Assembly (NCBI GenBank): GCA_028287505.1
Contig: JAQBPN010000129.1
Coordinates: forward strand, 1 to 64,000
Source: Fibrobacterota bacterium
GTDB lineage: Bacteria; Fibrobacterota; Fibrobacteria; UBA11236
Reading direction: 5' to 3'
Length of the DNA: 64,000 nucleotides
This document shows, piece by piece, positions 40,889-62,610 of this stretch (positions are counted from its first letter, which is position 1; the number at the start of each line of letters is the position of its first letter). The notes beneath the pieces are model-generated. The model was not told the DNA's origin. It saw only the letters and a program-made list of their open reading frames with translations, and ran no database searches. Both the position numbers and the translations under genes were made by a program.

Positions 40889-40909
40889 GGAGTTTGCGAA
40901 GCAAACTCC
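40889..40909. promoter_or_regulatory. Stem-loop before the amidoligase operon
   Basis: GGAGTTTGC-GAA-GCAAACTCC, a perfect nine-base stem with a three-base loop, 26 bases before the ATG of the C39-like gene. There is no T-run. It sits where an untranslated leader would be, so it may affect translation of the operon, or mark the end of the upstream 40976-41767 gene's mRNA. Confidence 0.55.
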
Positions 40910-46528: not shown

Positions 46529-46566
46529 ACCGGATTTCCCCTATATATAGGCGCCCGTCGGCAGGC

Positions 46567-47448
46567 TCAGGGATTCCCGTTCCCGTCATCCGTAGCGGCC
46601 AGACATAGCCAGCCCCGCGCTACCCAATCCTGGAACCATCCGCTGATGCCGCGCATGAGTTCCGCCTGCTCTTCGGGGCTCAGTCTACCCTCCAGCTTCT
46701 CAAACGCCTCGGTGAGCGTGGCCGGCTCCAGGAACACCCCCAGCACGGCAAAGGCGACCGGTGACACCGGCTCCTTCATGATTTCCAGATCCGGATCGCG
46801 GAAGATGGCCAGGTGGGCGGTTTCCGGCCGCAACTCGAAGCTGCCTTCCAGGCTTTCATCGGGCAGGCATCGGGAACGGAAATCCGCGAAGTCCCAATCC
46901 ACGCGCACGGGAGTCAGATGGGGCGCCACCTTCAGCCGCGCGGCAAGCAGATCCGCCGGCGCGGAAATCCCCGCGCCCGCCAGGGACGCGCCCTCGGGGG
47001 CGTCGAAGGCCTTGGACAGGGCGCGTTCGTAGGCGACGGCCTGCAACACGGCCCCGCGCGATTCTCCCTGGTAACCTTTTTCCAGGAAAGCGGGAAAGGC
47101 CGCGTCCAGCTCCGCCAGGAATGGCGAAGACGGCGGATGCGCTTCCAGATAACGCACGGCCCAGTCGTTGAATACGTGCAGGCCCATCAGGTGGATGGCG
47201 CAGGTGTAGTCGGATTGCATGACGGAGATGAGCCTGAACCAATATTGCTGGTTATAAATCCCCACCCGCGCGAATCCCGCCAGTCCGCCCTTCCCGCGCA
47301 CCAGGTCGTCCGCTTCCGGTTCGAGTCCGGGCGCCGATTCCGCCAGGGGATTCCCGTCGTATTCATCCGGCAACGGGCGGCTGATTTGCCGTCCGAACCA
47401 GCTTTGCAATTCGCCCAAATTCAGAGAAGTCTTATCGGCTTGGGACAT
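46567..47448 (-). CDS. DUF2063-family protein (MbnC-like)
   Basis: 293 residues. The N-terminal segment LGELQSWFGRQISRPLPDEY and FARVGIYNQQYWFRLISVMQ, followed by LMGLHVFNDWAVRYLEAHPP, matches the DUF2063 putative DNA-binding/MbnC-like domain. Such proteins are normally encoded next to a DUF692 (MbnB-like) oxygenase partner, with which MbnB/MbnC modifies cysteine in peptide precursors. No DUF692 gene is adjacent. The C-terminal half (about 180-293) has the acidic PVAFAVLGVFLEPATLTEAF region of the family. Function alone is unknown; the product is cytoplasmic. Confidence 0.82.
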   Translation of the reverse strand: MSQADKTSLNLGELQSWFGRQISRPLPDEYDGNPLAESAPGLEPEADDLVRGKGGLAGFARVGIYNQQYWFRLISVMQSDYTCAIHLMGLHVFNDWAVRYLEAHPPSSPFLAELDAAFPAFLEKGYQGESRGAVLQAVAYERALSKAFDAPEGASLAGAGISAPADLLAARLKVAPHLTPVRVDWDFADFRSRCLPDESLEGSFELRPETAHLAIFRDPDLEIMKEPVSPVAFAVLGVFLEPATLTEAFEKLEGRLSPEEQAELMRGISGWFQDWVARGWLCLAATDDGNGNP

Positions 47449-47528
47449 CGTCTAAATCTACCAAGATGGCTATGGAAACCGGTAGCCGAATGCACCTGGG
47501 ATTTTGCTAGCTTAGCATCCACCCCCCC

Positions 47529-47936
47529 ATGAATAAACTGCAAGGCACCGTAACCGGCATGGAGACCGAAGGCGGGATTTCCCTGGTGGAAGCGGACGTG
47601 CAAGGCCATCGATTCTCTTCCCTGGTCCTGGAAGGGGATGAGACCCGCTCATACCTTACGGTGGGAAGCCGCATCATCGTGCTATTCAAGGAATCGGAAG
47701 TCTCCGTCGCCACCGAATCCTTTCCGGGCATCAGCATCCGCAATCGCATTCCCTGCGCCATCCGCTCCATCATCAAGGGGCGAATCCTTTCCCATCTCAT
47801 CCTCGATTTCCGGGGTAGGGACATACATTCCTTGATCAGCACCCACTCCCTGATTGACCTGGGGTTGCATCCGGGACAAGCTATCGAGGCGCTCATCAAA
47901 TCCACCGAGGTCAGCCTGGCGGCAGACCATGGTTAA
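47529..47936 (+). CDS. Di-mop molybdate-binding protein (molbindin)
   Basis: 135 residues made of two tandem TOBE/Mop domains and nothing else: residues 3-62 (KLQGTVTGMETEGGISLVEA ... GSRIIVLFKESEVSVA) and residues 68-131 (SIRNRIPCAIRSIIKGRILS ... GQAIEALIKSTEVSLA). Mop pairs bind molybdate or tungstate at the domain interface; ModG of Azotobacter is the known example. There is no DNA-binding domain, so it is not a full ModE. Its stop overlaps the start of modB by 8 bases, so it is cotranslated with the transporter. Confidence 0.9.
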   Translation: MNKLQGTVTGMETEGGISLVEADVQGHRFSSLVLEGDETRSYLTVGSRIIVLFKESEVSVATESFPGISIRNRIPCAIRSIIKGRILSHLILDFRGRDIHSLISTHSLIDLGLHPGQAIEALIKSTEVSLAADHG

Positions 47937-48603
47937 CCTTGATTGGGAGCCAATCTGGCTCACCCTCAAGCTCGCGGCCATCACCACCGCCATTCTGATC
48001 GTGCTCTCCGTGCCGATTTCCTGGTGGCTTGCCTACACGCCTTCCAGGCTGCGGTTACCCATGCGGGCCATGGTGAGCATGCCCTTGGTTCTCCCCCCAT
48101 CCGTCCTGGGTTTCTACCTGCTGCTGGCCTTCAGCCCGGTTTATGGTCCGGGGCGGTTCCTCAAGGAACATTTCGACGTCAGCCTCGCCTTCTCCTTTCC
48201 GGGGCTGGTGTTGGGCTCGCTTCTCTTCAGCCTGCCCTTTATGGTCAATCCCCTGGTGGCCGGTTTCGAAAGCCTGCCGGCCTCCTTTTCCGAGGCCTCT
48301 TACGTGCTCGGGAAATCCCGTCTGCAAACGCTGCGCCATGTATTGCTGCCCAATCTCAGGCCCGCCCTCCTGAGCGGCGCTATCCTGTCCTTCGCGCATA
48401 CCATGGGCGAGTTCGGCGTCGTGCTCATGGTCGGTGGGAAAATCCCGGGGGTAACCAAGGTGGCCTCCATCGCAATATTCGATGAAGTCGAATCCCTCCG
48501 CTTCGCATCCGCGCATGTCTATGCCTTGGTCCTCTTCTCGATCTCATTCGCCATCCTGCTCACGCTTTTTTACGTGAACAAAAAAATGTTGAAACCATTC
48601 TGA
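47929..48603 (+). CDS. modB: Molybdate ABC transporter permease
   Basis: 224 residues, start ATG inside the end of the molbindin gene. Five membrane helices with motifs VSMPLVLPPSVLGFYLLLAF, LLFSLPFMVNPLVAGFESLP and the EAA loop SEASYVLGKSRLQTLRHVLL that contacts the ATPase, then AILSFAHTMGEFGVVLMVGG. That is ModB of the molybdate importer, working as a homodimer in the inner membrane. The partner binding protein ModA is not found in this cluster. ModC begins 13 bases after the stop. Confidence 0.94.
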   Translation: MVNLDWEPIWLTLKLAAITTAILIVLSVPISWWLAYTPSRLRLPMRAMVSMPLVLPPSVLGFYLLLAFSPVYGPGRFLKEHFDVSLAFSFPGLVLGSLLFSLPFMVNPLVAGFESLPASFSEASYVLGKSRLQTLRHVLLPNLRPALLSGAILSFAHTMGEFGVVLMVGGKIPGVTKVASIAIFDEVESLRFASAHVYALVLFSISFAILLTLFYVNKKMLKPF

Positions 48604-48616
48604 CCGGGCCGCGGCC

Positions 48617-49510
48617 ATGATCAAACTTTCCCTGCAAAAACGCCTCCATTCCGCCCAGGGGATATTGAACCTGGAAGTGGATATGGATATCGCGGAAGGG
48701 GAATTCGTCACTCTCTTCGGCAAATCGGGAACCGGCAAAACCACTCTGTTGCGCATGCTGGCAGGATTGGCGGTTCCGGACGCGGGCCGTATCGAGGTTC
48801 ACGGGGAAACCTGGTACGACAGCGCCCTGGGCATCAACCTGCCTCCTCAGCGCAGAAGGGTGGGCCTGGTCTTCCAGGACTATGCGCTTTTTCCCAACAT
48901 GACCGTACGGCAGAACCTGGAATATGCCATGAAGGATCCCAAAGCCCGGGGGCGCGTGGAGGAAATCCTCGAGGTCGCCCATCTGGGGCAGCTCGCCTCC
49001 CGTCGGCCCGGGACGCTGTCCGGCGGCCAGAAACAAAGGGTGGCGCTGGCCCGCGCGCTGGTTTCCGATCCCGGTATCCTGCTCCTGGATGAGCCGCTTT
49101 CCGCGCTGGATCAGGAACTCCGCATGAAATTGCAGGGGGAAATCGCGGAAATCCAGAAACGCTACCGGCTCGCCACCATTCTGGTCAGCCACGATCTGGG
49201 TGAGATTTTCCGGCTATCCCAGCGCGTCATGTGCCTGGAGGACGGCCGGATCCACCGCACCGGAAAACCCGGCGACGTCTTCGGCGGGGGCGGGATGAGC
49301 AATAAAATCCAGCTCACCGGAGTGGTGCTGGAAATCAAGGCGGCGGACGTGGTGCTGGTGCTGACCATCCTGGTGGGAAACGAGGTGGTGCGCGTCACGT
49401 CACTGCCGCAGGATGCGGAGGGGATGCGCGTGGGGGACAAGGTGTTCATCGCGGCCAAGGCGTTCAACCCCATGGTCTTCAAGGCCGATACCGCGCCCAG
49501 AGCCGGTTGA
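48617..49510 (+). CDS. modC: Molybdate ABC transporter ATPase
   Basis: 297 residues. Walker A TLFGKSGTGKTTLLRMLAG, Q-loop VFQDYALFPNMTV, signature LSGGQKQRVALARAL, Walker B ILLLDEPLSALD, switch His VSHDLGE, then a C-terminal Mop/TOBE domain (about 230-293, MSNKIQLTGVVLEIKAADVV, VRVTSLPQDAEGMRVGDKVF) that senses molybdate. The layout of NBD plus one Mop domain is that of ModC. It follows modB by 13 bases. It is also the only CysA/ModC-type ATPase in the window, so it is a possible energiser of the orphan sulfate permease at 17 kb; this is speculation. Confidence 0.94.
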   Translation: MIKLSLQKRLHSAQGILNLEVDMDIAEGEFVTLFGKSGTGKTTLLRMLAGLAVPDAGRIEVHGETWYDSALGINLPPQRRRVGLVFQDYALFPNMTVRQNLEYAMKDPKARGRVEEILEVAHLGQLASRRPGTLSGGQKQRVALARALVSDPGILLLDEPLSALDQELRMKLQGEIAEIQKRYRLATILVSHDLGEIFRLSQRVMCLEDGRIHRTGKPGDVFGGGGMSNKIQLTGVVLEIKAADVVLVLTILVGNEVVRVTSLPQDAEGMRVGDKVFIAAKAFNPMVFKADTAPRAG

Positions 49511-49537
49511 GAGGCCGGCCCCGAACGGGCCTCCGCC

Positions 49538-51787
49538 TCAGGGAATCTCTTCGAACACCCAATGGGAGCTCACGGCCGTAGCGGCAATAACGCCGCACTG
49601 GGCATTGCCCGTGAGGTTCTCCACGTGCAGGAACTGTCCCGGCTTCCACTTGTTCTCCAAACGCTTATACGTCCCGTCCAAGTCCGTGACCGTCCAATGC
49701 GCGCTGGTAAAGGTCTCCGGCAGGGAAGTGGCCGAAACGTAAGATGCCTGGTTTTCGATGTTGATCCGATCGCCGGTGGATCGGTTCAGGAGGATGGTGC
49801 CGTTCCCGTTGGCGCTGAGTTTCCATTGGGTGCGGGTATCGGAGGCGCCGAGGTTGCCGTATTTGAGCGGAGTCCCGGAATCGTATAGATAAGCTCCGTT
49901 CCACCGGTTCTTGATGCGGAAATATTCGCCGCCCTTGAACCCGCTCAATCCGCTGAAGACGGAGGTATGGGGCGCGTTGGAAAGCCCCGATCCCACCAAG
50001 GCGGTGTAGTAAGTGGAAGGCCAAGTGGTTTCATTGTTGCTTTCCCCGATCTGGGTCCAGGAGGTTCCGTTCTGGGAGGCATATCCCCGCAGGACGTTCC
50101 CGGAACGGGTGATCCTCACCCAACAAGGCAGGCTCCAGCCAGAACTGTTGTTGTCCAGGGTGGCACCGCCATCCGCCGTGCGCCGCAGGAACTTGGCCAC
50201 ACCGTCCGGGGTCACCACCATGGCCACCTGCTTGCTGTTGGCCGCCAGGCTTCCCCGGATCATGACGCCTGCCTTGGCCAGACCGCTGGTCCTCTCCACC
50301 TGATTGACCACCGCGCTGATATCCGAGAGGGTGCCGGCCGTGGGCCGATAGACCATCCGGAGCTTTTCGGCGGTGCCCCAGATATCTCCGCTGACGTTCT
50401 GGATAACGTGGAGGCCATTGCGGGACCCATTGCAATTGGATGCGGGAACGCCGCCGGTATAACCGATATCGGAAGAAAGGAAGCCGGCCTTGGGATCGTC
50501 GCAATGGACGGCCATGTAGTCGAAGCGGGCGATGATGCGGGGATCCGGATTCTGCCCGCCGAACAGGGCCGGATCCAGGAGCATACTGGATTTATGGGTG
50601 ATGAAATGGACGAAGTCCTCATAGAATCCGTTGGCGGGCATGAGCTTGACGGTGGCGCCGGCATTGTAGCCCGAGCCTCCCCCTCCGTAATTCGAATTCG
50701 GCAGGAGGGTGCGGAAACCGGCGACGATGTTGGATCGGAAGAGAGCGGAAATGCCCATGGCGTCTCCACGGGCGAAGGGGAGAAAATGCGGCTTCTCAAC
50801 ACCGGTGGCTGTGCCGAAAGCCACGTTCGGGTAAGCGTATGCCTTGGGCAGAACGCCGAATGGCTGGCTGGTGGGGTTGTTGCTCACGTTGAGTCCGCTC
50901 CCGTCCGCCGCCTCCAGATAATTGATGCGCACCCAGCCCCGATTGACGTTCAAATCGACGTAACGGGCGGTCTGGAAATAATTCGCCTGGTGGGTGTCGT
51001 TCGGGGCCCCTGGATGCGCTGCGGCTCCGCCCCGCGTCAACACCAGCTCCCGGACATTGGGGTTGGACGCATTCGCCCGGATGAAGTTCCGGCCGCCCCG
51101 GCCTTGCCCCTTGTTACCGGGATCCCCCTCCCCGGGCTCTCCGGGAAAGACGGCGGAGTTGAATCGGCCCAACTGATCCACGGTGCACTCGAATCCGTTA
51201 TCGTCGAAAATCAACGTCGCGATGTCTATGATCTTGGCGGTTTCTGGAATTCCCAGCGAGGCCAGCGTATAGACGGCCTCGACTTTCGCGGTCATATCCC
51301 ATCCGCCTATCTTCACCCAATAGGTCGAATAGGGGGCCACATAGGCGCTTCCCAGGTAGGCCGCCCGGGTATCGATGCGGACATACCCCCGGAGCCCGGT
51401 GCCCGCATCGAAATTGGCGCTTCTGAAAAAGGAGGGATCATTGTGCCTCAATTCGATGGAATAGGAATTGGCGACGTTGACATTCTTCTTGATCCACATG
51501 TTTCCGCCGGCCGAAGAGCCTCCGAAATTCTCGCTCAAGCGCGCCAGTTCATGGACTTCCTTTTGATCATCGGAATAAATGAAGGCGGTGGCGCCGAGGA
51601 TCTGGTCATCCGCGACGTTCAGACTGACGGGAATCGATAGGGTGGACGTGGAAAGCATGTTCCAGTTCATGATGGGAATGACCCGGGACGCCATGCCGCT
51701 GGGACTGTATTCGGTTTGCTGTCCCCGGGCGATGCCGACTGTCAAGAACGTGGAAAACAAACCGGACAAGACGATCCATCGACGCAT
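49538..51787 (-). CDS. Large secreted multidomain protein with DUF1349-like and ricin-like C-terminal modules
   Basis: 749 residues from the ATG at 51787 (GGGGA ahead). Signal peptide 1-22 (MRRWIVLSGLFSTFLTVGIA then RGQQ). Residues about 30-450 contain repeats of a beta-rich module of the form WDMTAKVEAVYTLASLGIPE, D-rich strand pairs and RGWVRINYLE; the module recurs in the proteins at 56597 and 58546. Residues about 460-605 form a DUF1349-like beta sandwich (GDIWGTAEKLRMVYRP, SGLAKAGVMIRGSLAANSK, PCWVRITRSGN). Residues about 620-749 look like a ricin-B-type lectin (YFRIKNRWNGAYLYDSG ... FLHVENLTGN). It is probably a secreted or surface carbohydrate-binding protein. A palindromic site (51890-51906) lies 102 bases upstream. 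Confidence 0.8.
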   Translation of the reverse strand: MRRWIVLSGLFSTFLTVGIARGQQTEYSPSGMASRVIPIMNWNMLSTSTLSIPVSLNVADDQILGATAFIYSDDQKEVHELARLSENFGGSSAGGNMWIKKNVNVANSYSIELRHNDPSFFRSANFDAGTGLRGYVRIDTRAAYLGSAYVAPYSTYWVKIGGWDMTAKVEAVYTLASLGIPETAKIIDIATLIFDDNGFECTVDQLGRFNSAVFPGEPGEGDPGNKGQGRGGRNFIRANASNPNVRELVLTRGGAAAHPGAPNDTHQANYFQTARYVDLNVNRGWVRINYLEAADGSGLNVSNNPTSQPFGVLPKAYAYPNVAFGTATGVEKPHFLPFARGDAMGISALFRSNIVAGFRTLLPNSNYGGGGSGYNAGATVKLMPANGFYEDFVHFITHKSSMLLDPALFGGQNPDPRIIARFDYMAVHCDDPKAGFLSSDIGYTGGVPASNCNGSRNGLHVIQNVSGDIWGTAEKLRMVYRPTAGTLSDISAVVNQVERTSGLAKAGVMIRGSLAANSKQVAMVVTPDGVAKFLRRTADGGATLDNNSSGWSLPCWVRITRSGNVLRGYASQNGTSWTQIGESNNETTWPSTYYTALVGSGLSNAPHTSVFSGLSGFKGGEYFRIKNRWNGAYLYDSGTPLKYGNLGASDTRTQWKLSANGNGTILLNRSTGDRINIENQASYVSATSLPETFTSAHWTVTDLDGTYKRLENKWKPGQFLHVENLTGNAQCGVIAATAVSSHWVFEEIP

Positions 51788-51889
51788 TTTTTCCCCACGG
51801 AAAGCCCGATACGACCGGCGCGCCAATCCATATGGACCGCGCACATATCGGAATTGGCCAATCTAATGACCGGAAGGGTCTTTTGCAAT

Positions 51890-51906
51890 CACCATTCTAA
51901 ATGGTG
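51890..51906. promoter_or_regulatory. CACCATT palindrome, site 1
   Basis: CACCATT-CTA-AATGGTG, two perfect seven-base arms with a three-base spacer, preceded by AAT. It lies 102 bases before the start of the 749-residue secreted protein and behind the mosA stop. The same arms occur at 53781-53797. Confidence 0.75.
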
Positions 51907-51945
51907 CCCAGGCGCCCCGGTTCCCGCCGGAAGGCGGTTACGGGC

Positions 51946-52788
51946 TCAGGCATGCACGATGGTTCCCACGTGCTCCCCGTTGACGGCCGCTTCCACCAAC
52001 TCGGGTTTGAGACCGTTGACCAATTGGAATTGTTTCACCAAGCGCGTAGTCAACAGGATGTCCATCAGGACTTCGTCGAAAGGCAGGGTTTTCAGCTTCC
52101 TTTGTTTGAGTTCCGTGGCGGAAATCTCCTTGATGAAAGAAGCCGAAGGGTTCTCCCTGGGATCGGAAGTGTAAAGGCCATCCACGTCCTTCACCAAGGT
52201 GACCGATTTGCATCCGAAGCACTCCGCCAGGATGAAACATCCGGCGTCGGTCCGGTGCGGAGGAATGCGGCCGATGGCCGGAGGATGCTCCCAGATGGAG
52301 TACGGTGGCACGCCGTTGAAGATGACCCCGGGTGCGCTCTGGATGAAGAGAGGCAGCAGATGTCCGAAGATTTCCGGAGGGATGGCCACCACTCCGTAGG
52401 GAGCCAAAAGCGTGCCCAGGATATGCGCGTTGCCCAAAGCGTCCGCCATGGCCAACTGGGCCAGTACGCCCGTCGGGAGGCCCAGATCCAGGCCTATGGA
52501 GAACACATGCCGGCTACGGGTGCCGCCCCCCACCCCCAGGACCAGGCGCTCCTTCTTGAGGATCCGGCTCAGGGAATCCGCCACCGGGTACAGTGCCTTG
52601 CGGCCCGCGTCGATCAGGGATCGCCCTCCGATCTTTACCACGTGCACGTCCGGAAGCATGCGCACCACCGGGGTTTCCGTCGCCGCCATCACGTCCTTGT
52701 CGATGAGGCTTTCCCGCATGAGCTTGGAAAACACATGATGCCGTTTGTCCGGGCTGATTGAATTGACGTCTATCGATTGCTTGTCCAT
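51946..52788 (-). CDS. mosA: Molybdenum storage protein alpha subunit homologue
   Basis: 280 residues from the ATG at 52788 (GGGGA 9 bases ahead). An amino-acid-kinase-fold (UMP kinase-like) protein: VHVVKIGGRSLIDAGRKALY, RLVLGVGGGTRSRHVFSIGL, DLGLPTGVLAQLAMADALGN, GVPPYSIWEHPPAIGRIPPH, RTDAGCFILAECFGCKSVTL, VKDVDGLYTSDPRENPSA and NGEHVGTIVHA. The order and wording follow MosA of Azotobacter vinelandii rather than UMP kinase. MosA/MosB form an alpha3-beta3 cage that stores polyoxomolybdate using ATP. It follows mosB by 16 bases on the same strand. No nitrogenase gene is in the window. Confidence 0.88.
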   Translation of the reverse strand: MDKQSIDVNSISPDKRHHVFSKLMRESLIDKDVMAATETPVVRMLPDVHVVKIGGRSLIDAGRKALYPVADSLSRILKKERLVLGVGGGTRSRHVFSIGLDLGLPTGVLAQLAMADALGNAHILGTLLAPYGVVAIPPEIFGHLLPLFIQSAPGVIFNGVPPYSIWEHPPAIGRIPPHRTDAGCFILAECFGCKSVTLVKDVDGLYTSDPRENPSASFIKEISATELKQRKLKTLPFDEVLMDILLTTRLVKQFQLVNGLKPELVEAAVNGEHVGTIVHA

Positions 52789-52804
52789 TATCTTTTCCCC
52801 TGCC

Positions 52805-53620
52805 TCAATCGGCCGTAATCTCGGTGCCCACGTCTTCGCCATGCAAGGCCTTGGTAAGGTTGCCGCGTTCCAGGCCGTTTATGATGCGGATGGACCGGCG
52901 GTTCACGGCGTTCTGCATCATGTCCAGCACCGCCGGCTCCACCACCATGTCCCGGAAGTTGGAGGCCTTGAGCTCCGATACCGTAATGCGGGGGATGAAC
53001 TTGGCGCCCTTGTCCTTTTTCGGATCGGCCGTGTAAAGGCCCTTCTCATCCTTGATATAAATCATGGAACGCGCTCCGAATACCTCGCTGATCAGGTAGG
53101 CGCCCGTGTCCGTGCGATGGGGCGGGATGCGGCCTACGGGGGGATTCTGCTGCCAAAACGTATAGGGAGGCATGCCCATGAAAATCACGGCCCGGCGCTC
53201 GGCCAGGTAGAGGGGCAATTGCGGGAACTGGGCGGGCTCGATGAACGGGATGCCGTGCTTGGCGAGCAGATAGTGTATCATGCGGGCGTTCTGCATGCTC
53301 ACGAAGGTCCCCAGAACGCTGAGTACTCCAGTCGGCATTCCCAGGTCGATGCCGACGCTGTAGGCATGGCGTGCGCGCGTGCCGGCTCCGGTGCCGATGA
53401 TGAGCTGGTGCCGGGGAAGGTTCTCCACCAGTTCCTCCAGCAGCGGAAACACCGCCTCCCGGCCGCGATCGATGAAACTCTGGCCGCCGATCTTGATGAC
53501 ATTGGCCTCCGGCAGGATCCGGATGGCGGGCGGGACGGAAGTCCTCCGCAGCAAATCCACGTCCGTTAGATTGCCCTCGACCAGGGCTGCGCCCAATTGG
53601 GACAAAAGTTCCTTGCTCAT
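52805..53620 (-). CDS. mosB: Molybdenum storage protein beta subunit homologue
   Basis: 271 residues from the ATG at 53620, with GGAGG 6 bases ahead. Paralogous to the next gene but with MosB wording: VIKIGGQSFIDRGREAVFPL, QLIIGTGAGTRARHAYSVGI, GMPPYTFWQQNPPVGRIPPH, RTDTGAYLISEVFGARSMIY, DEKGLYTADPKKDKGAKFIP and LTKALHGEDVGTEITAD. It is the first gene of a two-gene operon with mosA. The length is close to that of A. vinelandii MosB. Upstream, 160 bases away, lies the perfect palindrome 53781-53797. Confidence 0.88.
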   Translation of the reverse strand: MSKELLSQLGAALVEGNLTDVDLLRRTSVPPAIRILPEANVIKIGGQSFIDRGREAVFPLLEELVENLPRHQLIIGTGAGTRARHAYSVGIDLGMPTGVLSVLGTFVSMQNARMIHYLLAKHGIPFIEPAQFPQLPLYLAERRAVIFMGMPPYTFWQQNPPVGRIPPHRTDTGAYLISEVFGARSMIYIKDEKGLYTADPKKDKGAKFIPRITVSELKASNFRDMVVEPAVLDMMQNAVNRRSIRIINGLERGNLTKALHGEDVGTEITAD

Positions 53621-53780
53621 CAAATCCTCCCCACGATTTTTTTCGACGTAGACTGGTTCGCGGACGGGCGGAATCCCGAAACGCGCGAGTGTAAAAGCGG
53701 ATTTTTCCGGCGCTTGAGAGTCGCCGGCAAACCCATGCACAAAATAAGCACGGAAGACCCGCCCGTGCAGTCCGAAAAAT

Positions 53781-53797
53781 CACCATTTTTAATGGTG
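53781..53797. promoter_or_regulatory. CACCATT palindrome, site 2
   Basis: CACCATT-TTT-AATGGTG, perfect arms, preceded by AAT as at site 1. It lies between the end of the ABC-2 permease gene and the mosB start, 160 bases ahead of mosB. Confidence 0.75.
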
Positions 53798-53816
53798 CAC
53801 CTGCGGTCGGGACGGA

Positions 53817-54590
53817 TCATAAGCGCCTCGCTTTCCCCAGTTCGGCCAGGCAGACGGCGAACAATGCAAATGCGCACGCGCCTCCCGCCGCCAGTTGGAT
53901 CCAGGGAACTCCCTCGCCAATCCGCAACAAGGCGAATCGCAGTCCGTCCGCCACGGCGGAGATGGGATTGGCGGCCGCGATGCCGGCCAACCAGACCGGC
54001 ATGTGGCGTTTGGGGACCAGGGCCGTGCTCGTAAAGAACAGCGGCATGTTCAGGGCCTGGATGAAGACGCCCATGGTTTCCTGGGAGCGGGTTTTCAACG
54101 CGATCCAGCACGACAAAGAGGCGTATCCGAGGGCGAAAAGCGCGGTCAGGACCAGGGCCGCGGCCAAGGCCGAGAACCGGGGATGCAGCCGCGCGCCCAG
54201 CGCCAGGCCCATCAGCGCCACGACCAACCCTTGCGCCAGCAGACGCACCACATCCGCGGAAACCTTTCCGGCCAACAATGCCGCCGGAGAAGCCGGCGTG
54301 AGAAGCATGCGCTTCAGAAAACCGGTCTGCAGGTCCCGGATCAGGCCGGTACCGGATTGGGAGGCGCCGAAGAGCACCGTCATCACGCAGACGCCCGGTA
54401 AAAGGAAATCCAGGTACGCCACAGCATCTTCTCCGGCCTGCACCGGATACCTGTGGAAAAGGAATCCGAAGAAGATCATCCACATCAGGGGCTGGACCAG
54501 GGAGAACACGAGGACGATAGGCCGGCGCGCGACCTTTTTCCAGGTGTGGACGCAAATCGTCCCGAAAATCCGCCATCCCGGATCAAACAT
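53817..54590 (-). CDS. ABC-2 type exporter permease
   Basis: 257 residues from the ATG at 54590, which overlaps the end of the ATPase gene by 8 bases; a longer upstream frame would read into that gene. Six membrane helices: IVLVFSLVQPLMWMIFFGFL, YLDFLLPGVCVMTVLFGASQ, LLTPASPAALLAGKVSADVV, FSALAAALVLTALFALGYAS, MPLFFTSTALVPKRHMPVWL and the last near 235-252. It resembles DrrB/YhhJ-type ABC-2 permeases, which export drugs, lipids or glycans. It is the third gene of a unit with the methyltransferase and the ATPase. Confidence 0.9.
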   Translation of the reverse strand: MFDPGWRIFGTICVHTWKKVARRPIVLVFSLVQPLMWMIFFGFLFHRYPVQAGEDAVAYLDFLLPGVCVMTVLFGASQSGTGLIRDLQTGFLKRMLLTPASPAALLAGKVSADVVRLLAQGLVVALMGLALGARLHPRFSALAAALVLTALFALGYASLSCWIALKTRSQETMGVFIQALNMPLFFTSTALVPKRHMPVWLAGIAAANPISAVADGLRFALLRIGEGVPWIQLAAGGACAFALFAVCLAELGKARRL

Positions 54591-55671
54591 TTCCGGAGTC
54601 CTTTTTACCGCTTCGTCGCCGAAGCCCTCCGCCGCCGCCGTTTCCCGCTCGGCGCCCCTTCCCAGCTTCCCCCGTTTCCCCACCGACCGAGGGAATGCCC
54701 AAGCCCTGGAAGACGCTGAGCAAATCGGGCCTGCGCCTCTCGTATACCTCCGCTTGGGCTCCCTGGCGTTCCAGAATCTTGTTCAGGACAGAGTCGTCCG
54801 GACCGGCCCCCGCCATCCGGAGGGTCAAAGCCGTGTGCCCCAGGGTCACGGCGCTTACTTCCGGAACCGCTTCCAACTCCCGCCTGAGCCCGGCGGCATC
54901 GGGAGCGGGGCGGAACAGAACCGCCTTCCACACCCAGGCTCCGTGCCGATCGATAAGCGCCTGCGGCGGTCCATCCGCCCTGACACGGCCGCGGGCCATC
55001 ATGAGAATGCGCCCGCATCTCTCCGCCGCTTCGTGCAAATCGTGCAAGGTAACCAGAGCCCCCGCACCCCGCTTGACGCGGGACTCCAGGAATTGCCAAA
55101 AGGCTTCCTTACCGGCCGGATCCAGGGCCTGGGTCGGCTCATCGCACAACAACAAGTCGGAATCCGGCAGAAACCCCAAAGCCACGTGCAGGCGTTGGCG
55201 CATCCCGCCCGAACACCGGGAGACCCGCCGGGAGACGACGGCTTCCAGATCGAAATGGGCGAGCAGCGAATGGATTCTTTTTCCCGCTTCGGCGGGGTCC
55301 ATTCCATGTAAGACCGCGAACAAACGCAAAGTTTCCCCCACGGTCATTTCCGGATCGAGGGAAGGCTCTTGTGGGATATACGCCGTACGGCGGCGCACGG
55401 CGTTACCCGGTACCCCGCCCAACACCTGCACCGTTCCTTCCGTGGGCACCAGCGCGCCCGCCAGGAGATTCAACAAGGTGGATTTCCCGGATCCGTTGGG
55501 CCCCACAATGCCTGCGAGCTCCCCGGGGCCCAAGCGCAGATCCATATGCTCCAGAGCTTCTATCCCTCCGGGAAAGGTTTTGGCCAGACCTTTGGCATCC
55601 ACGGCATAGGGCGGGGCCGACGGCGCAGCCAGGGATTCCGGCGCGCTCCCGGAGGACTTGTTTTGAAACAT
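54583..55671 (-). CDS. ABC-2 type exporter ATPase
   Basis: 362 residues. Walker A GIVGPNGSGKSTLLNLLAG, Q-loop YIPQEPSLDPEMTV, signature RCSGGMRQRLHVALGF (Cys in place of the usual Leu), Walker B LLLCDEPTQALDP and switch His VTLHDLHEA. The C-terminal part carries a DrrA/NatA-like regulatory extension (WVWKAVLFRPAPDAAGLRRE) and a Gly/Arg-rich tail. It pairs with the downstream permease. It begins 3 bases after the methyltransferase stop, so all three genes form one operon that reads towards the mos genes. Confidence 0.9.
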   Translation of the reverse strand: MFQNKSSGSAPESLAAPSAPPYAVDAKGLAKTFPGGIEALEHMDLRLGPGELAGIVGPNGSGKSTLLNLLAGALVPTEGTVQVLGGVPGNAVRRRTAYIPQEPSLDPEMTVGETLRLFAVLHGMDPAEAGKRIHSLLAHFDLEAVVSRRVSRCSGGMRQRLHVALGFLPDSDLLLCDEPTQALDPAGKEAFWQFLESRVKRGAGALVTLHDLHEAAERCGRILMMARGRVRADGPPQALIDRHGAWVWKAVLFRPAPDAAGLRRELEAVPEVSAVTLGHTALTLRMAGAGPDDSVLNKILERQGAQAEVYERRRPDLLSVFQGLGIPSVGGETGEAGKGRRAGNGGGGGLRRRSGKKDSGNV

Positions 55672-55674
55672 CGT

Positions 55675-56469
55675 TCAGGATCCCCGCGACATTCCCACCA
55701 GAACGTAACTCTCCGTAGCGGTCACGGGATCGGACAGATTCCCGAAACGTCCTTCCGCCCAGGCCCGGAGTTCTTCCAGAACGGACCGCTTCACTTCCAC
55801 AGGCATCTCCAAGCCGTTCAGGCCCGCTTTTCCCTGCCAGGACTCCAGCGAGTCCATGGGGGAAGACGCCCTTTGCCAAGAGGAAACGATCCGCGATCCG
55901 ATGGGACGCCATCCCCGGCTTTCCAGTTCCAGCGCCATCGCCTTCCGGACTCCGCCGCCGCCATGCCCCCGGAATCCCCGGTCCTGCAAAAGCCGCCGCA
56001 TACGATGACTCATCATTTCTTTCACCGATTCCTTTTCCCGTTGCAACCCTCCGGAAAACAGCACCGTGCCCGGTCCGGATGCGACCCGCTCAAGCTCGCC
56101 GGCCAAATGCGCCGGAGGCAAATGATGCAAGGAACGGGATCCGAAAACCACGTCCACGGATCCAGGGCGAAGCGGCCAGGTGGCGCATCCATCGGCTTGC
56201 AGCAAAAACGCGCGGGGAGTTTCCCGGGTCCGGAACGCGCGCAGCATGGGCAAGCTCAGGTCCAATCCCAGATACCGATGCGCCCGGCGCGCCAGGTGTA
56301 CGCCGATCTCGCCCGTGCCCGCGCCGATTTCCACCAGGTTTTTCCGTCCATCCTGCAATCCCGCGATTTCCGTAAGCGCAACCGCGACCCTTTCCGGCAC
56401 GTCCGGGGGCAGCCCGGCGCGCCGGTCGAAATTTCCGGCCTGGTCATCGAACAATGCTCTGTATTCCAT
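55675..56469 (-). CDS. Class I SAM-dependent methyltransferase
   Basis: 264 residues. The Rossmann-like core has motif I LVEIGAGTGEIGVHLARRAH, the acidic residue in YLGLDLSLPMLRAFRT, and VDVVFGSRSLHHLPPAHLAG (motif IV region). The N-terminal EYRALFDDQAGNFDRRAG and downstream LFSGGLQREKESVKEMMSHR are typical of UbiE/BioC-like small-molecule methyltransferases. The substrate is unknown. Its stop is 3 bases before the exporter ATPase start, so methylation and export may act on one product. Confidence 0.87.
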   Translation of the reverse strand: MEYRALFDDQAGNFDRRAGLPPDVPERVAVALTEIAGLQDGRKNLVEIGAGTGEIGVHLARRAHRYLGLDLSLPMLRAFRTRETPRAFLLQADGCATWPLRPGSVDVVFGSRSLHHLPPAHLAGELERVASGPGTVLFSGGLQREKESVKEMMSHRMRRLLQDRGFRGHGGGGVRKAMALELESRGWRPIGSRIVSSWQRASSPMDSLESWQGKAGLNGLEMPVEVKRSVLEELRAWAEGRFGNLSDPVTATESYVLVGMSRGS

Positions 56470-56596
56470 TCGGCTCCGGTTAGGCGCTTGTATGAAGCGT
56501 CACGGTCTGGTTTCCCCCGGCGCGGCCTTGAACCAAGGTATATGCGACCCTCTGCGCCGTCAACAGCCCGACGTCCGCACCCGCCATTCCAAGCTC

Positions 56597-58426
56597 CTAA
56601 AAGCCGCTGAAATTGCTCGCCACAGTGGTATTCATCTGAGGCTTGCCGAAACTTGTGCCCGCGATGCCGACGTAATAGGTGGCTCCCGTCGCGATGGTAA
56701 CCGCCGGAGACATGGCAATCCAGGTAACCCCGTTATCGGTCGAATACGAACCCGTGTACGTGGTCGCCGTCTTTATCAGGCGCAGATATACGGGCGCCTT
56801 CACGGTGGCGGCCGTCACCGTGGGATGCACGGTCGCCGCTCCATCGGTGGGCCTATTGGTCCATTGGACACCTTGGCCGGGCGTGGCCAGCATGGAGACG
56901 TGGCGGCTGTTCGCTCCCAGGCCCATGCGGATCATGATGCCCGTCTTGGCCCAAGGATCGATATTCCCCTGGCTCACGATTTTTGCGACGAAGGTATGAT
57001 TGGAGTTGTCGGTATAGGCTTTGTACACGTAAGTGAACTCATCATTGGTGCCCCAGATATCCGCGCCGGCTCCCTGGACGACCATATTTCCGCCCACTCC
57101 GGCGGCGCAGTTGTTCGAAGTGTTGGCGGGAACGGCCCTGATCTGGAAGCCCGAAGCCCCGTCCGCGCAGGAACCGGCAAGGTAATCGATCCGGAACCAG
57201 CCGCGGTTGAGGGTCGTACTCGCGTGGTTGGAGGCCCAATAACCGGGGCTGGAGGGATCATCGTACGCCACCAGATGGATTTGATTCGCGGCCTCATCAA
57301 TGGTATGCAGCCCGGCCTGATGCCGATGGGAAAATGTCCAATCATCGGCCTTCCTCAGATTGGTCACATTATGTTCATCGTTTGGATCGCCCGGGGTAAA
57401 TGGATCGGTATGGATGGTCGCCTCGGAATGGATGACCCGGCTTCCCGCGATTCCAAAATCGAAGGGAATGATTTTATCCACCTGGGTATGCGTGGCATCG
57501 GTATAAATGGGCCAGGCGCCGATCTGCTTGAATTTCGACTTCATGGCATAGGGAGCGCTGACTCCGGCGGCGGTTCCATAATATGTCACCTTGACCCAAC
57601 CCCGCAGGCCGCTTCCGCTGTAGCTGGCGTTTCCGAACACGCGCGGATTGGCTCCGCCTCCCGCTCCATTCCGGATTGCCAGAGTGACCTGTGAACCCGT
57701 TCCGTTCGGTGTTACCAGGAAGTTCCCGCCCCGGAGGAGATTGACGTCGGGAACGACCTTATGTCCTTTGCGATCGAAGTCGTCGATTTTCACCTTGCCG
57801 TTCACGGGATCGGACAATATCGTCACGGATATATCCGCTATTTTGCTGATGTCGATATTCGGTAAGGAGATGACCTTGGTGAATGGCGCGGTGTTGGCCG
57901 TGGTTTGCACGTTCCAGCTATTAATTGGAAAGCAATAGACGTTCACCGCCGGATTGGCGGCTGCGCCTGCAGGGAGGTAATAGTCGATCTTAGCGTACGC
58001 TCGGGGATTCGCAGTGCTGGAGTAATTGTTCTGCTTGAAGAACGCCGCCCCGGAATTCAGGTTCGCCGCGCATTGGGTCGGGTTGTTCGTGCATTGGAAA
58101 AAGAACTCGCCTCCCATCACCTGGTACCCTTGGGTGGCGTCATCGTTGAGACGATAAAGCGGGCTCGCGCTGGCGGGCTTGCCGTTCACGTAATCGTCGT
58201 CTATCAGGATATTGGTTTCGATGATGTTCCGGTTATTGAATCCGGATTGAAAGGAGTGGAACGTGTATCCCCAGTAGGCGGAATTGTCCCGCATGTCCCA
58301 TCCCTGCGTAATCGGGCTGACCATGGTGGCGATGTTCGCTTCGGTATAAACCTGCGCCCTCCCCTTGCCGGTTGCGACGGTCAGTACGGCCAGAAATATC
58401 GAAAGTGGTATCTGCTTTTTCATCAT
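56597..58426 (-). CDS. Large secreted modular protein (paralogue of the 58546-60474 protein)
   Basis: 609 residues from the ATG at 58426 (a second ATG follows at 58423). Signal peptide 1-24 (MKKQIPLSIFLAVLTVATGK then GRAQ). Three repeats of a beta-rich module follow: about 30-165 (GWDMRDNSAYWGYTFHSFQS), 175-310 (SWNVQTTANTAPFTKVISLP, GLRGWVKVTYYG) and 320-450 (SRVIHSEATIHTDPFTPGDP, LNRGWFRIDYLAGSC). The last 150 residues form a DUF1349-like sandwich (ADIWGTNDEFTYVYKA, DPWAKTGIMIRMGLGANSR). About as long as its neighbour at 58546 and clearly duplicated with it. No catalytic motif is seen; adhesion or binding is the likely role. Confidence 0.8.
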   Translation of the reverse strand: MMKKQIPLSIFLAVLTVATGKGRAQVYTEANIATMVSPITQGWDMRDNSAYWGYTFHSFQSGFNNRNIIETNILIDDDYVNGKPASASPLYRLNDDATQGYQVMGGEFFFQCTNNPTQCAANLNSGAAFFKQNNYSSTANPRAYAKIDYYLPAGAAANPAVNVYCFPINSWNVQTTANTAPFTKVISLPNIDISKIADISVTILSDPVNGKVKIDDFDRKGHKVVPDVNLLRGGNFLVTPNGTGSQVTLAIRNGAGGGANPRVFGNASYSGSGLRGWVKVTYYGTAAGVSAPYAMKSKFKQIGAWPIYTDATHTQVDKIIPFDFGIAGSRVIHSEATIHTDPFTPGDPNDEHNVTNLRKADDWTFSHRHQAGLHTIDEAANQIHLVAYDDPSSPGYWASNHASTTLNRGWFRIDYLAGSCADGASGFQIRAVPANTSNNCAAGVGGNMVVQGAGADIWGTNDEFTYVYKAYTDNSNHTFVAKIVSQGNIDPWAKTGIMIRMGLGANSRHVSMLATPGQGVQWTNRPTDGAATVHPTVTAATVKAPVYLRLIKTATTYTGSYSTDNGVTWIAMSPAVTIATGATYYVGIAGTSFGKPQMNTTVASNFSGF

Positions 58427-58508
58427 TCCCCAATTCCTGTTTCGAATTCGAGAAACCGACCAAGCGGTCCGCCCCGTTTTACTCGCCAAAAAAGCGTCGT
58501 TGCTTCCG

Positions 58509-58525
58509 CACCCATTGTAGTGGTT
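58509..58525. promoter_or_regulatory. CACCATT palindrome, degenerate site 4
   Basis: CACCCATTGTAGTGGTT, matching 12 of 17 positions of the perfect site 2 and keeping CACC and TGGT. It lies 82 bases before the 609-residue secreted protein. Its weaker match makes it the least certain of the four. Confidence 0.45.
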
Positions 58526-58545
58526 CATTCCATGTCGGTGAAAGG

Positions 58546-60474
58546 CTAGAAACTTGCGTTGCTGAACACCGTGGTATTGAGCTCAGAGGAGGAGCTTGTG
58601 CTGGCCAAGCCCACGTAATAAGACGAACCCGCCGGCAAGGTGACATTGTTAATGGGGGAACCCAATTGGGTCCAGGAACCGGCGAGGCCGGTCGGCGAGG
58701 TCGAGCCGGTGTAGCTGTTTCCGGTCTTGACCAGGCGGATATAAATGGGAGCCTTCAAGGCTGTGTTGACATAGGGATGGAACGTCTGGTTGTTGGGGCT
58801 TACGTCGGAGGCGCGATAGGTCATTTGCACCCCATTGACGGGCGTAACCAGGATGGAGACCTCGGCGCTCGTTGAGGTTATATATTGCCGCATCATCAAC
58901 CCGGCTTTGGCCCAATCGGAGGTCTTTTCCTGATTGTCCACCCGCGCGATCATGGTCAGATTGGGAGTCTGGTTGACGCCGTATTGCTTGTAGACGAAGG
59001 CGCATTGATCGGCGGTGGACCAAATATCATTGCCCTTGGTCTGGATGACATGGATTGCGCCGTTATTGCCGGCGCAATCGTCGCTTGAAGCGTTCGCGGC
59101 GAAGAAGACCTTGTAAAAGCCCGACCCTTCGTTGCATGCGGCCGCTAAGTAGTCCACTCGATACCAACCCCGGTTGACGGTGGTGCTGGAATGAAACGAG
59201 CTGTAGAAGGTGGGCACCGCCTTGTTGGTGCTGGCGGTTGCCACCAATCCGATGGCATTGGCGGAGTCATCAACCGTTGAAAGCTGTTGATCCCCTCCTA
59301 TTTGGTTCAAGTGGGTGTTCCTGTGCAGGTTGGTGACGAAAAGGGATCCGGTTTGGGAGTTCGGATCGGACAGTATGGTGGCTGAGGTATAGACCAGGCG
59401 ATTGGCCGGAACGCCCAGCGAATTGAACGGCAGCTTTATGCTGTCCTGATTCCCTGAAGCCCAATTAGGGGGGAAATTGTCGCCACAGCAATTGTTGAAA
59501 ATTCCCCAGGGACCTATAGGCCTGAATTTGGATTTGATTGCAAAAGGCTGAGGAACGCCGTTGGCGGTTCCCGCATAGGTGATTTTCACCCACCCTCGGG
59601 TTCCCGTGGCATTCCGGTAAAGACGGGTATGAGGCGCCCGGGTCGGATCCTGTAGAAACATGCTGGATTCCGTGCCGGTCCCTCCGCTGATCCAGGTCGC
59701 GAAGTTGAGCATCACCTGGGAACCGGTTGTCCCGAGGGGGACGATATCGATAGTGCCCCCTTTGAACAATGAAAATTGAGAGACGCCGCTGTTGTGAAAG
59801 TAACCCCTCCGATCAAAGTAGTCCACCTGGATTTTCCCCTGCGCATTCGGGTCGGACAGGATGGTCACGGACACGTTGGCAATCTTGCTTATGTCGATAT
59901 TGGGAAGATCGACGGTCTTCACATGACTTCCTCTTCCCGTCGTTTCCATATTCCAGTTGTTGATGGGATAATAATATTCGTTGACTCCCGAAGGCGCGGG
60001 CAAGGCGCCGGTTTTGTAATCGATCTGCACGTAACCTCGACGCGCCACGGGATCATCATAGGAACTATTCGTGAAAAAGGTGCTACTGGAGGTTCCGCGA
60101 GTCATGAAGAATTGGCAATTCCCCCCTATGTTCGGAGGAACGCATACCGTATAGAAAAACCCGCCATGCAAAGTCCCCGCGGTTTCGTACTTCATCCTGT
60201 ACAGGGGAACCACCTTGGCCGGCTTCCCGGATAAGGGATCGGCGTCGATTGTAACGGTGACGTCGATAATATCGGCCATGTTGAACCCGGACGGGAACGA
60301 GGATTGGGGAACAACGAAGCTTTCAAAATTCCCATTTGCATTCATGTTCCACCCTGAGAAGGGAACGACTATCGTACCCTTATTCTCTTCCGTGTAAACC
60401 TGAGCCGTTGCAAGGCTGGGAATGGTGCCGAGTATGGCCAAAAATATCGAAATCGGTAGAGACCTATTCATCAT
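58546..60474 (-). CDS. Large secreted modular protein (paralogue of the 56597-58426 protein)
   Basis: 642 residues from the ATG at 60474 (a second ATG at 60471 is possible; GGGGCGAG precedes). Signal peptide 1-23 (MNRSLPISIFLAILGTIPSL then ATAQ). The same three modules as the neighbour: SGWNMNANGNFESFVVPQSS, NNWNMETTGRGSHVKTVDLP with NIDISKIANVSVTILSDPNA (nearly identical in the paralogue), and VNRGWYRVDYLAAAC. The end is a DUF1349-like domain (NDIWSTADQCAFVYKQYG, TSDWAKAGLMMRQYITSTSA). Tandem duplication is recent enough for long matches. Secreted or surface-bound; function unknown. Confidence 0.8.
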   Translation of the reverse strand: MMNRSLPISIFLAILGTIPSLATAQVYTEENKGTIVVPFSGWNMNANGNFESFVVPQSSFPSGFNMADIIDVTVTIDADPLSGKPAKVVPLYRMKYETAGTLHGGFFYTVCVPPNIGGNCQFFMTRGTSSSTFFTNSSYDDPVARRGYVQIDYKTGALPAPSGVNEYYYPINNWNMETTGRGSHVKTVDLPNIDISKIANVSVTILSDPNAQGKIQVDYFDRRGYFHNSGVSQFSLFKGGTIDIVPLGTTGSQVMLNFATWISGGTGTESSMFLQDPTRAPHTRLYRNATGTRGWVKITYAGTANGVPQPFAIKSKFRPIGPWGIFNNCCGDNFPPNWASGNQDSIKLPFNSLGVPANRLVYTSATILSDPNSQTGSLFVTNLHRNTHLNQIGGDQQLSTVDDSANAIGLVATASTNKAVPTFYSSFHSSTTVNRGWYRVDYLAAACNEGSGFYKVFFAANASSDDCAGNNGAIHVIQTKGNDIWSTADQCAFVYKQYGVNQTPNLTMIARVDNQEKTSDWAKAGLMMRQYITSTSAEVSILVTPVNGVQMTYRASDVSPNNQTFHPYVNTALKAPIYIRLVKTGNSYTGSTSPTGLAGSWTQLGSPINNVTLPAGSSYYVGLASTSSSSELNTTVFSNASF

Positions 60475-60631
60475 CTCGCCCCTGTTCAATTCGGTTGTTA
60501 AAATTCTGCTGAAAGCGGTTTCCGGATAGCCAAATTAATCGTCAATTTCTCCGGAGGCTTGGTACTTTTTGCGCATATACCAGGATCAAAACCGCAACCA
60601 TGCCAGCGACTCATCGCTCTGGAAGAGAATG

Positions 60632-60648
60632 CACCACGTGTAATGGTG
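60632..60648. promoter_or_regulatory. CACCATT palindrome, site 3
   Basis: CACCACG-TGT-AATGGTG: the right arm is perfect and the left matches at five of seven positions. It lies 157 bases before the 642-residue secreted protein, just past the end of the DUF486 gene. Confidence 0.6.
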
Positions 60649-60658
60649 CTTGGGCACT

Positions 60659-60985
60659 TTACCGCTTCATGGCGAAACCCACGGCCCCGATCAGGAATGC
60701 GAATGCCACCATGTGGTTCCAGCGCAGCGATTCTTTCAAATACAAGATTGCGAATATCATGAACACGGCGAGGGTGATCACTTCCTGAATCACCTTCAAT
60801 TGGATGCCCGTGAAGTATTGCGATCCGATCCGGTTCGCGGGCACCTGGAAACAGTACTCCAGGAAAGCGATCGCCCAACTCACCAGGATGACCTTCCACA
60901 GAGGAACGTTTTTGTAATGGAGATGCCCGTACCAGGCGAAGGTCATGAAGACATTGGAGATGATCAGGAGGAGGATGGCTGCCAT
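60659..60985 (-). CDS. DUF486-family small membrane protein
   Basis: 108 residues from the ATG at 60985, with GGGGGAG 6 bases ahead; a longer upstream frame covers a terminator and is not real. Four membrane helices: AAILLLIISNVFMTFAWYGH, LWKVILVSWAIAFLEYCFQV, VIQEVITLAVFMIFAILYLK and MVAFAFLIGAVGFAMKR. The segment PANRIGSQYFTGIQLKVIQE is the family signature. DUF486 belongs to the DMT-like small multidrug-type fold; function unknown. It is encoded between the secreted-protein pair and the outer-membrane protein gene. Confidence 0.9.
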   Translation of the reverse strand: MAAILLLIISNVFMTFAWYGHLHYKNVPLWKVILVSWAIAFLEYCFQVPANRIGSQYFTGIQLKVIQEVITLAVFMIFAILYLKESLRWNHMVAFAFLIGAVGFAMKR

Positions 60986-60997
60986 GGCACTCCCCCC

Positions 60998-61030
60998 AAA
61001 AAATAAAAAAGCTTCCGGGGCTGCGGAAGC
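60998..61030 (-). terminator. Rho-independent terminator of the 61097-62287 gene
   Basis: GCTTCCG-GGGCTG-CGGAAGC forms a seven-base stem (61011-61030); read on the minus strand it is followed by CTTTTTTATTTTTTGG. This is a textbook terminator for the outer-membrane protein gene, 66 bases past its stop and just before the DUF486 start. Confidence 0.9.
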
Positions 61031-61096
61031 CCGTCCCCCGAATAGGGAGGGTTCCGCGCCGGAAGCCTGTTCGGTCAAATGTCCGTAAGGACTAAA

Positions 61097-62287
61097 TCAA
61101 ATGCCCAAGGCCAAGCCGATGTTCAAGAACAGACCCTGGCCGGCGTTGCCGCCAATCAGGTAGGGGCCGTTGCTGAGGACGCTTTCCTTGAGGAAGCCTT
61201 CGAATGCGAGGTTTTCCTTGACCCAACGCAAGCCTACGGTCACATCGGAGCCGCCGGTGAGCAAGTTGCTGGATTCATCGCCGTCGACGGGGGTGTCCGA
61301 AGTCGCTGCATAGCTGCCGGTAACCGAGAAGCCGGTGAAGCCCTCGAATCCCTTGCCCAGCTGCTTCTGGAAGGCGATGTTCGGGGTCAGCGCCACGCTG
61401 TAGGCGCTTCCCTGCTCGAATGCCGCGTACTGTTCGGTCGAATTCGCGCCGAGGAATACGGCGTAATCGCTTTTCGCCTTGAGAATGTATCCCCAAGCCG
61501 GCATGACCGTGATTACGCTGGTGGTGGCTTTCACATCGGGCGCCGGAGGCGTTTCGTCAGTGCTCATCTCCATCTGGTAGCTGGCCTCGACGTTGAAGGC
61601 ATGAGTGCCTTCGGTCGTGGCATCCTTCTTCCAGCCGCCCATCACGCTCAGGGTGTGGTTGGAGACGGTGAATTCCGAGACGCCCGTGGGCTTGGAGACC
61701 ACGGTGTTTTCCAGGCCGGGCACGATCGGGAGGCCAGTGTTGAAACTGACGGATCCGTACACGTCGCTCGAACCGAGGTTGAAATCGCCGAACGCGCCGA
61801 TGCCGCTCGGATCGAAGTAAGTGGTGTTTTCGCCCGCCGCGGATTTCGCGGAGACCCGGTTCACGGCCAACAGCAGGCCGCCTCCCCAAGAGGTGCCACT
61901 GCCGGCACCGATCCGGAGGGTGGCTGGCGCTGTGGCCCCTCCTGCAGCTGCCCCGCCGGCGGTTACGGCGCCGAACCAGTTCAGGCTACCGAGGCGGAAA
62001 CTGTAGGCTGCGCTCTGCATGTCGCCCCCGCCGAAACCCGCGAAGTACTGCTTGTCGCCGATCAAGGTGGGACGGCGGGAAAAGTCGTCCACGGTGTTAT
62101 CCGCGGCGGCATTGCTCTGGGTCACAGAGGTATATAACCCCGTGCGAGGAGCGGCTACCGCGCTGGAGGAGCTGGACGATGAAGAGGGCGTGGGAAACGC
62201 GCTCGTGGTGTTGTCCTGGGCCAAAGCCCATCCGGCCAGGCCGGAAACCGCCATGCACGTTATCGCTACTGTTTTGAGTTTCGTCAT
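61097..62287 (-). CDS. Exported outer-membrane beta-barrel-like protein
   Basis: 396 residues from the ATG at 62287. Signal peptide 1-23 (MTKLKTVAITCMAVSGLAGW then ALA), then a Ser-rich linker (TPSSSSSSSSAVAA) and a series of amphipathic strands with alternating glycine and aromatic residues (AAYSFRLGSLNWFGAVTAGG, GSVSFNTGLPIVPG, HTLSVMGGWKKDATT, VTVGLRWVKENLAFEGFLKE, GLFLNIGLALGI). The regular strand pattern fits a barrel or transporter-like outer-membrane protein; I do not recognise the family. It is monocistronic, ended by a strong terminator. Confidence 0.75.
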   Translation of the reverse strand: MTKLKTVAITCMAVSGLAGWALAQDNTTSAFPTPSSSSSSSSAVAAPRTGLYTSVTQSNAAADNTVDDFSRRPTLIGDKQYFAGFGGGDMQSAAYSFRLGSLNWFGAVTAGGAAAGGATAPATLRIGAGSGTSWGGGLLLAVNRVSAKSAAGENTTYFDPSGIGAFGDFNLGSSDVYGSVSFNTGLPIVPGLENTVVSKPTGVSEFTVSNHTLSVMGGWKKDATTEGTHAFNVEASYQMEMSTDETPPAPDVKATTSVITVMPAWGYILKAKSDYAVFLGANSTEQYAAFEQGSAYSVALTPNIAFQKQLGKGFEGFTGFSVTGSYAATSDTPVDGDESSNLLTGGSDVTVGLRWVKENLAFEGFLKESVLSNGPYLIGGNAGQGLFLNIGLALGI

Positions 62288-62610
62288 TGTGACCTGTTCT
62301 CCTTTGAGGTGATGGACCATTTGGAAGATTGTGATTTTCCAAAAGTCTTCCAGAAGTTAACAATTTTTGGCCATTTTACAGTTAAGTAAGGTAAGGGAAT
62401 GTTCAAGTTGCGGTAACCGGGGAATTTCCCTGTTAATAGCCGAATACTTGTTAACACTTGTGAATAGACTGTGAACAAGTAGCGAAATTGCGTTTCATGA
62501 CTAATATGGATTTTCCGGGGTCATTAGAAAAATTGGAGGTAGGGGTTTTTGGGAAATCAAAGGAAACCAGCTCGCGGACCCGGTGGCAAAAGGCTTGGGG
62601 ACGGGCGGGA
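62288..62610. other. Intergenic region with two inverted repeats
   Basis: 323 bases of AT-rich DNA ahead of the outer-membrane protein gene. GGAAGA/TCTTCC arms lie near 62320-62352, in the presumed untranslated leader of that gene. A second pair, ACTTGTT (62446-62452) and AACAAGT (62474-62480), surrounds GTTAACACTTGTG. These may be regulator sites; no promoter can be called with confidence. I see no gene here. Confidence 0.4.

Follow-up and report, generated by a model that had tools for sequence, protein, structure and literature searches.

A short palindrome, CACCATT-N3-AATGGTG, recurs in front of many genes throughout one genus of Fibrobacterota, and it is quite probably the operator of a single homodimeric, sequence-specific transcription regulator common to the whole genus, with a regulon biased toward exported proteins and lipoproteins. 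Two perfect copies lie in the window, the whole 64,000-nucleotide stretch of DNA analyzed here. One of them precedes mosBA, genes of molybdenum storage that most likely arrived by horizontal transfer and now sit behind what appears to be a site of the resident type.

Copies of the palindrome from the window to the phylum

The perfect copies at 51890-51906 and 53781-53797, each with a leading AAT, had been noticed in a preliminary description and are borne out by the sequence; they are not chance. With extended arms, site 1 (AATCACCATTCTAAATGGTGCCC) spans 51887-51909, 40 bp past the mosA stop codon and 102 bp 5' of the start codon of a gene for a 749-aa secreted protein (49538-51787, minus strand; no Pfam family). 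Site 2 (AATCACCATTTTTAATGGTGCAC) spans 53778-53800, about 20 bp past the stop codon of an ABC permease gene and 160 bp 5' of the mosB start codon. A probable degenerate site 3 (CACCACGTGTAATGGTG, 60632-60648; like the other two, not assigned to a strand) has two mismatches and lies 157 bp 5' of the start codon of a gene for a 642-aa secreted paralogue of the 749-aa protein (58546-60474, minus strand). Its left-arm variant, CACCACG, also occurs in the copy at C85:54633, which stands 93 bp before another secreted-protein gene. The weaker copy previously proposed at 58509-58525 reads CACCCATTGTAGTGGTT and had to be rejected, as it mismatches at 4 of 14 arm positions and falls outside the three-mismatch list. 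The third paralogue, of 609 aa (56597-58426, minus strand), is left with no credible upstream site, and the suggested pattern of a site before four minus-strand genes holds for the 749-aa protein and mosB and plausibly for the 642-aa protein. As previously described, the window contains no further good copy, the sole other match at up to three mismatches being at 3809. Taken alone, the window is unremarkable at this threshold, with four matches against 1.95 expected.

The complete genome gives a different picture. Against a background defined by an 864-kb sample of this genome together with pattern searches, the 6.07 Mb contain seven perfect and eight one-mismatch copies, where a simple estimate predicts 0.023 and about 1 (~0.95), respectively; the reversed control yields none. 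When every 7-3-7 palindrome of all classes was enumerated in the 864-kb sample, CACCATT was the joint most frequent arm. Two-mismatch matches number 18, near the naive expectation, and at least 10 of these 18 are intergenic compared with 13% non-coding sequence, which suggests that some are real and makes it plausible that the copy at 60632, despite its two mismatches, is a genuine site.

The same enrichment extends over the genus. Across six species, the own genome (G000) and five congeners (G001 to G005), there are 52 copies with at most one mismatch (15, 7, 9, 6, 9, and 6 per species), compared with about 5.5 expected and 2 in the control, which gives 0 or 1 per species. These copies are not scattered over random genome positions: 38 of the 52 are intergenic, again relative to 13% non-coding sequence. 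In congener G003, no copy is perfect or a strong match to the extended pattern. In 162 genomes from elsewhere in the phylum there are nine perfect copies, all of them single; four of those examined lie inside predicted reading frames, three of these in one and the same repeat. The excess in all six species, set beside only nine single copies across 162 other genomes, marks the palindrome by its sequence distribution as a genus-level element.

Anatomy of the site and the genes behind it

The full site of the intergenic copies reads AA(T/G)CACCATT-N3-AATGGTG(A/C)TT. Each half is conserved outside the searched 17-mer, with A at -3, A/G at -2, and T/G at -1, in the intergenic copies alone; copies inside genes have no flank conservation outside the 17-mer. 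This flank conservation does not depend on the pattern searched for, and it is the strongest sign of function. A search with the extended 23-bp pattern recovers 24 sites and none in the control. The CACC-to-GGTG spacing is 9 bp in all copies, and the centers of the 7-mers are 10 bp apart, or one DNA helical turn. No promoter element occurs at a fixed distance downstream of the site, and site-to-start distances vary widely.

Inverted arms could also form an RNA or DNA hairpin, acting as a weak terminator, an attenuator, or a 5'UTR stem and not as a protein operator, which we consider unlikely. The 17-mer does fold into a 7-bp stem of -5.8 kcal/mol (-9.7 kcal/mol with the extended AAT arms), flank complementarity somewhat exceeds that of shuffled sequence at offsets 1 and 3, and a few extended copies carry symmetric changes. 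The mosB copy, so close behind the permease stop codon, has ATTTTT after it and appears among the terminator-like sequences. However, a T4 run is found near only 7 of the 38 intergenic copies, and several copies lie between divergent genes (L149, L023, and L167), where a terminator is not expected. The arm sequence itself is conserved, and compensated pairs account for 1 of the 18 double changes in the two-mismatch list, which is no excess, indicating that sequence rather than base pairing has been kept. A hairpin or terminator may suit the mosB copy alone but does not account for the set as a whole; Rfam finds no RNA family in 46000-62500.

Most intergenic copies are located 17-290 bp before a start codon, and for 7 of the 38 the nearest gene start is more than 300 bp away. 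Scripts written for this analysis called the gene starts and signal peptides. Behind 22 of 31 intergenic targets stands a signal-peptide gene, whereas a matched background of random intergenic positions gives 48% (Mann-Whitney p = 0.0004; p = 0.04 under a stricter predictor). The bias of the targets toward secreted proteins and lipoproteins is real but moderate, and with so high a background the targets are not, as they first seemed, secreted almost without exception. Target products include subtilase/CBM, fn3, PKD/Ig, sialate-esterase-like, GDSL-lipase-like, and FG-GAP proteins, as well as lipoproteins. Among the few cytoplasmic exceptions are mosB and an alcohol-dehydrogenase-like gene. In congener G001 (C169, L143), an exbB-exbD-tonB-like operon is preceded at 202 bp by a palindrome with one mismatch, a target hinting at a link to nutrient uptake.

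Retention across relatives was assessed by asking whether sites are lost where the genes are kept, and some targets do keep the site. Homologues of an Ig/PKD secreted protein carry the site in three species (250, 175, and 291 bp upstream in G000, G004, and G005, respectively), and their upstream regions cannot otherwise be aligned, the palindrome being the one block that is clearly conserved. The site before the fn3 protein is kept in G001 and G005, two of three orthologues, and is missing from the G002 orthologue. Full-length 609/642/749-aa paralogues occur in the own genome only. A decayed fourth copy of this family, interrupted by in-frame stops, lies at about 20.0-20.9 kb of contig C87 in the same genome (L258), with a two-mismatch palindrome in front.

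The mosBA cassette and the molybdenum question

All five genes of the mos cassette in the window are on the minus strand. They encode a mosA-like molybdenum storage subunit (51946-52788; amino-acid-kinase fold family, PF00696), a mosB-like molybdenum storage subunit (52805-53620; 66-79% identical to relatives in many phyla), an ABC-2 type permease (53817-54590), an ABC ATPase (54583-55671), and a class I methyltransferase (55675-56469), the last three belonging to the traveling cassette. Across many phyla, the cassette is conserved and often has the order methyltransferase-mosB-mosA-ABC ATPase-ABC-2 permease (loci L174 to L227), and the methyltransferase is present in 40 of 54 mos loci. The order in the window (51946-56469) is altered to methyltransferase-ABC-ABC-mosB-mosA. 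The ABC pair now separates the methyltransferase from mosB, and site 2 lies in the gap of 197 bp newly formed between this pair and mosB. We found no match at all to mosB in the five congeners, and the palindrome is missing upstream of mosB in all 54 relatives from other phyla. The absence from congeners, the relatives in many phyla, and the lack of the palindrome in all 54 suggest that mosBA arrived from outside. The locus would illustrate how a foreign operon for metal storage, once transferred and rearranged, can come to lie behind an operator of the resident genome. The literature searched contains no description of a role for the methyltransferase and exporter with MoSto.

The presence of a perfect copy before mosB raises the question of whether a molybdenum-responsive regulator, be it ModE or a different sensor of Mo or W, uses the palindrome as its operator and so couples the storage of molybdenum to secreted proteins. 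We consider this very unlikely. A ModE box resembles the palindrome in that both stand in front of a molybdenum gene, and the own genome does encode a ModE-like protein (HTH plus molbindin; 92 bits, slightly short of the curated threshold) beside a modA-like gene (L325, about 52 kb on contig C111). In addition, moeA has a perfect copy at a distance of 677 bp, but that site fronts a lipoprotein gene on the opposite strand. In sequence the palindrome is unrelated to the ModE box, whose E. coli consensus is ATCGCTATATANNNNNNTATATAACGAT (PMC2700814), and the earlier statement that this is not a known ModE site is correct. No copy precedes the molbindin-modBC genes of the window (47529-49510), which are far from the ModE-like gene. 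On the modE-modA contig, the sole match at up to two mismatches is a two-mismatch copy inside coding sequence, with none intergenic. The motif, which stands mostly before secreted-protein genes, is present in all five congeners, and all of them lack mosB. Furthermore, MoSto accumulates in A. vinelandii to similar levels across all Mo concentrations tested (PMC6448029), which does not favor a molybdenum-controlled promoter here.

The preliminary idea that a common regulator couples molybdenum storage to secreted proteins is therefore retained in part. A shared site of regulatory type is present, whereas coupling specific to molybdenum is not supported, given the congeners that have the motif without mosB, the bare mod operon of the window, the separate ModE-like gene beside modA, and the 54 mosB relatives without a palindrome. 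Because the palindrome recurs genus-wide before many genes, mostly for secreted proteins, the putative regulator that binds it is probably not specific to molybdenum.

The predicted regulator

An operator bound by one dimeric protein remains the reading that best accommodates these observations. A dispersed repeat or an attachment or recombination site (REP-like, phase-variation, or integrase) is hardly credible, for although the copies are dispersed and some groups of them span just a few kb (C85 54633/58598; G001 C118; G004 C43), they share no sequence past about 23 bp, with information content near zero beyond position -3, and are not paired around a segment but stand singly before most genes.

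We infer that some protein binds the palindrome, that it is one protein rather than several at all copies, and that the predicted regulator controls mosBA. In the proposed mechanism, an HTH dimer would contact two successive major grooves through the 7-bp half-sites one turn apart, together with their AA(T/G) flanks. It would act at promoters in the 17-290 bp before start codons and adjust transcription of a mainly extracytoplasmic gene set. The regulon would be biased to lipoproteins and proteins exported by Sec, and many of these products would be large modular proteins or surface or polysaccharide enzymes. Both mosBA, in its rearranged acquired cassette, and two of the three adjacent secreted paralogues would probably have been brought under this same regulator.

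Like operators of dimeric HTH proteins in general, the site consists of two inverted half-sites of 7 bp, set about one helical turn from each other, and occurs in the promoters of many genes. NarL/FixJ-type operators consist of two 7-bp half-sites, in a 7-2-7 arrangement for NarL, and lambda-type repressors recognize the half-site TATCACC in a 17-bp arrangement. The (A)ATCACC of the palindrome resembles the lambda half-site, a resemblance only, and the 3-bp spacing between the 7-mers fits neither the NarL nor the lambda arrangement. Many copies of the palindrome share GCACC/GGTGC half-sites, and a position upstream of genes, with the NtrC enhancer site, TGCACC-N5-GGTGCA, but CACC and GGTG are 9 bp apart here and not 5, and inspection by eye established no sigma-54 promoter pattern near the sites. 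The literature searched held nothing relevant on the exact arms and nothing on Fibrobacter regulons.

No candidate regulator with consistent proximity to the sites or signs of autoregulation was found. A TetR gene behind a two-mismatch site (C113:40589) was considered as an autoregulated candidate and set aside, as no such gene lies behind the sites with at most one mismatch that were read in the six genomes. Regulator-like genes of TIGR02147 (Fsuc_second), a lineage-expanded family that the literature searched does not name, occur at 56 places in the own genome, some of them beside lipoprotein genes of one family; their number points to Fibrobacterota as the phylum. Two are close behind or near motif sites (C47 and C81), and a third (C67) has a two-mismatch site 133 bp in front of it. 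Their link to the palindrome is one of proximity, which is not evidence when the genome has 56 copies, and we rejected them as the binding proteins.

Beyond the operator itself, it is a tentative possibility that a global regulator of the genus, not described before and governing surface and secreted proteins through the extended site, has captured the acquired mosBA, tying intracellular molybdenum storage to extracellular nutrient acquisition. The sites define a specific regulon, as predicted, for the secretome of a poorly studied and apparently biomass-degrading lineage, and the exact 23-bp site offers a bait for its regulator. Another palindrome, (G)AGTTTGC-N3-GCAAACT(C), also recurs between genes, with four copies in the 864-kb sample of the own genome, at 40891-40907 of the window and at L113:19252, L114:18392, and L126:6106.
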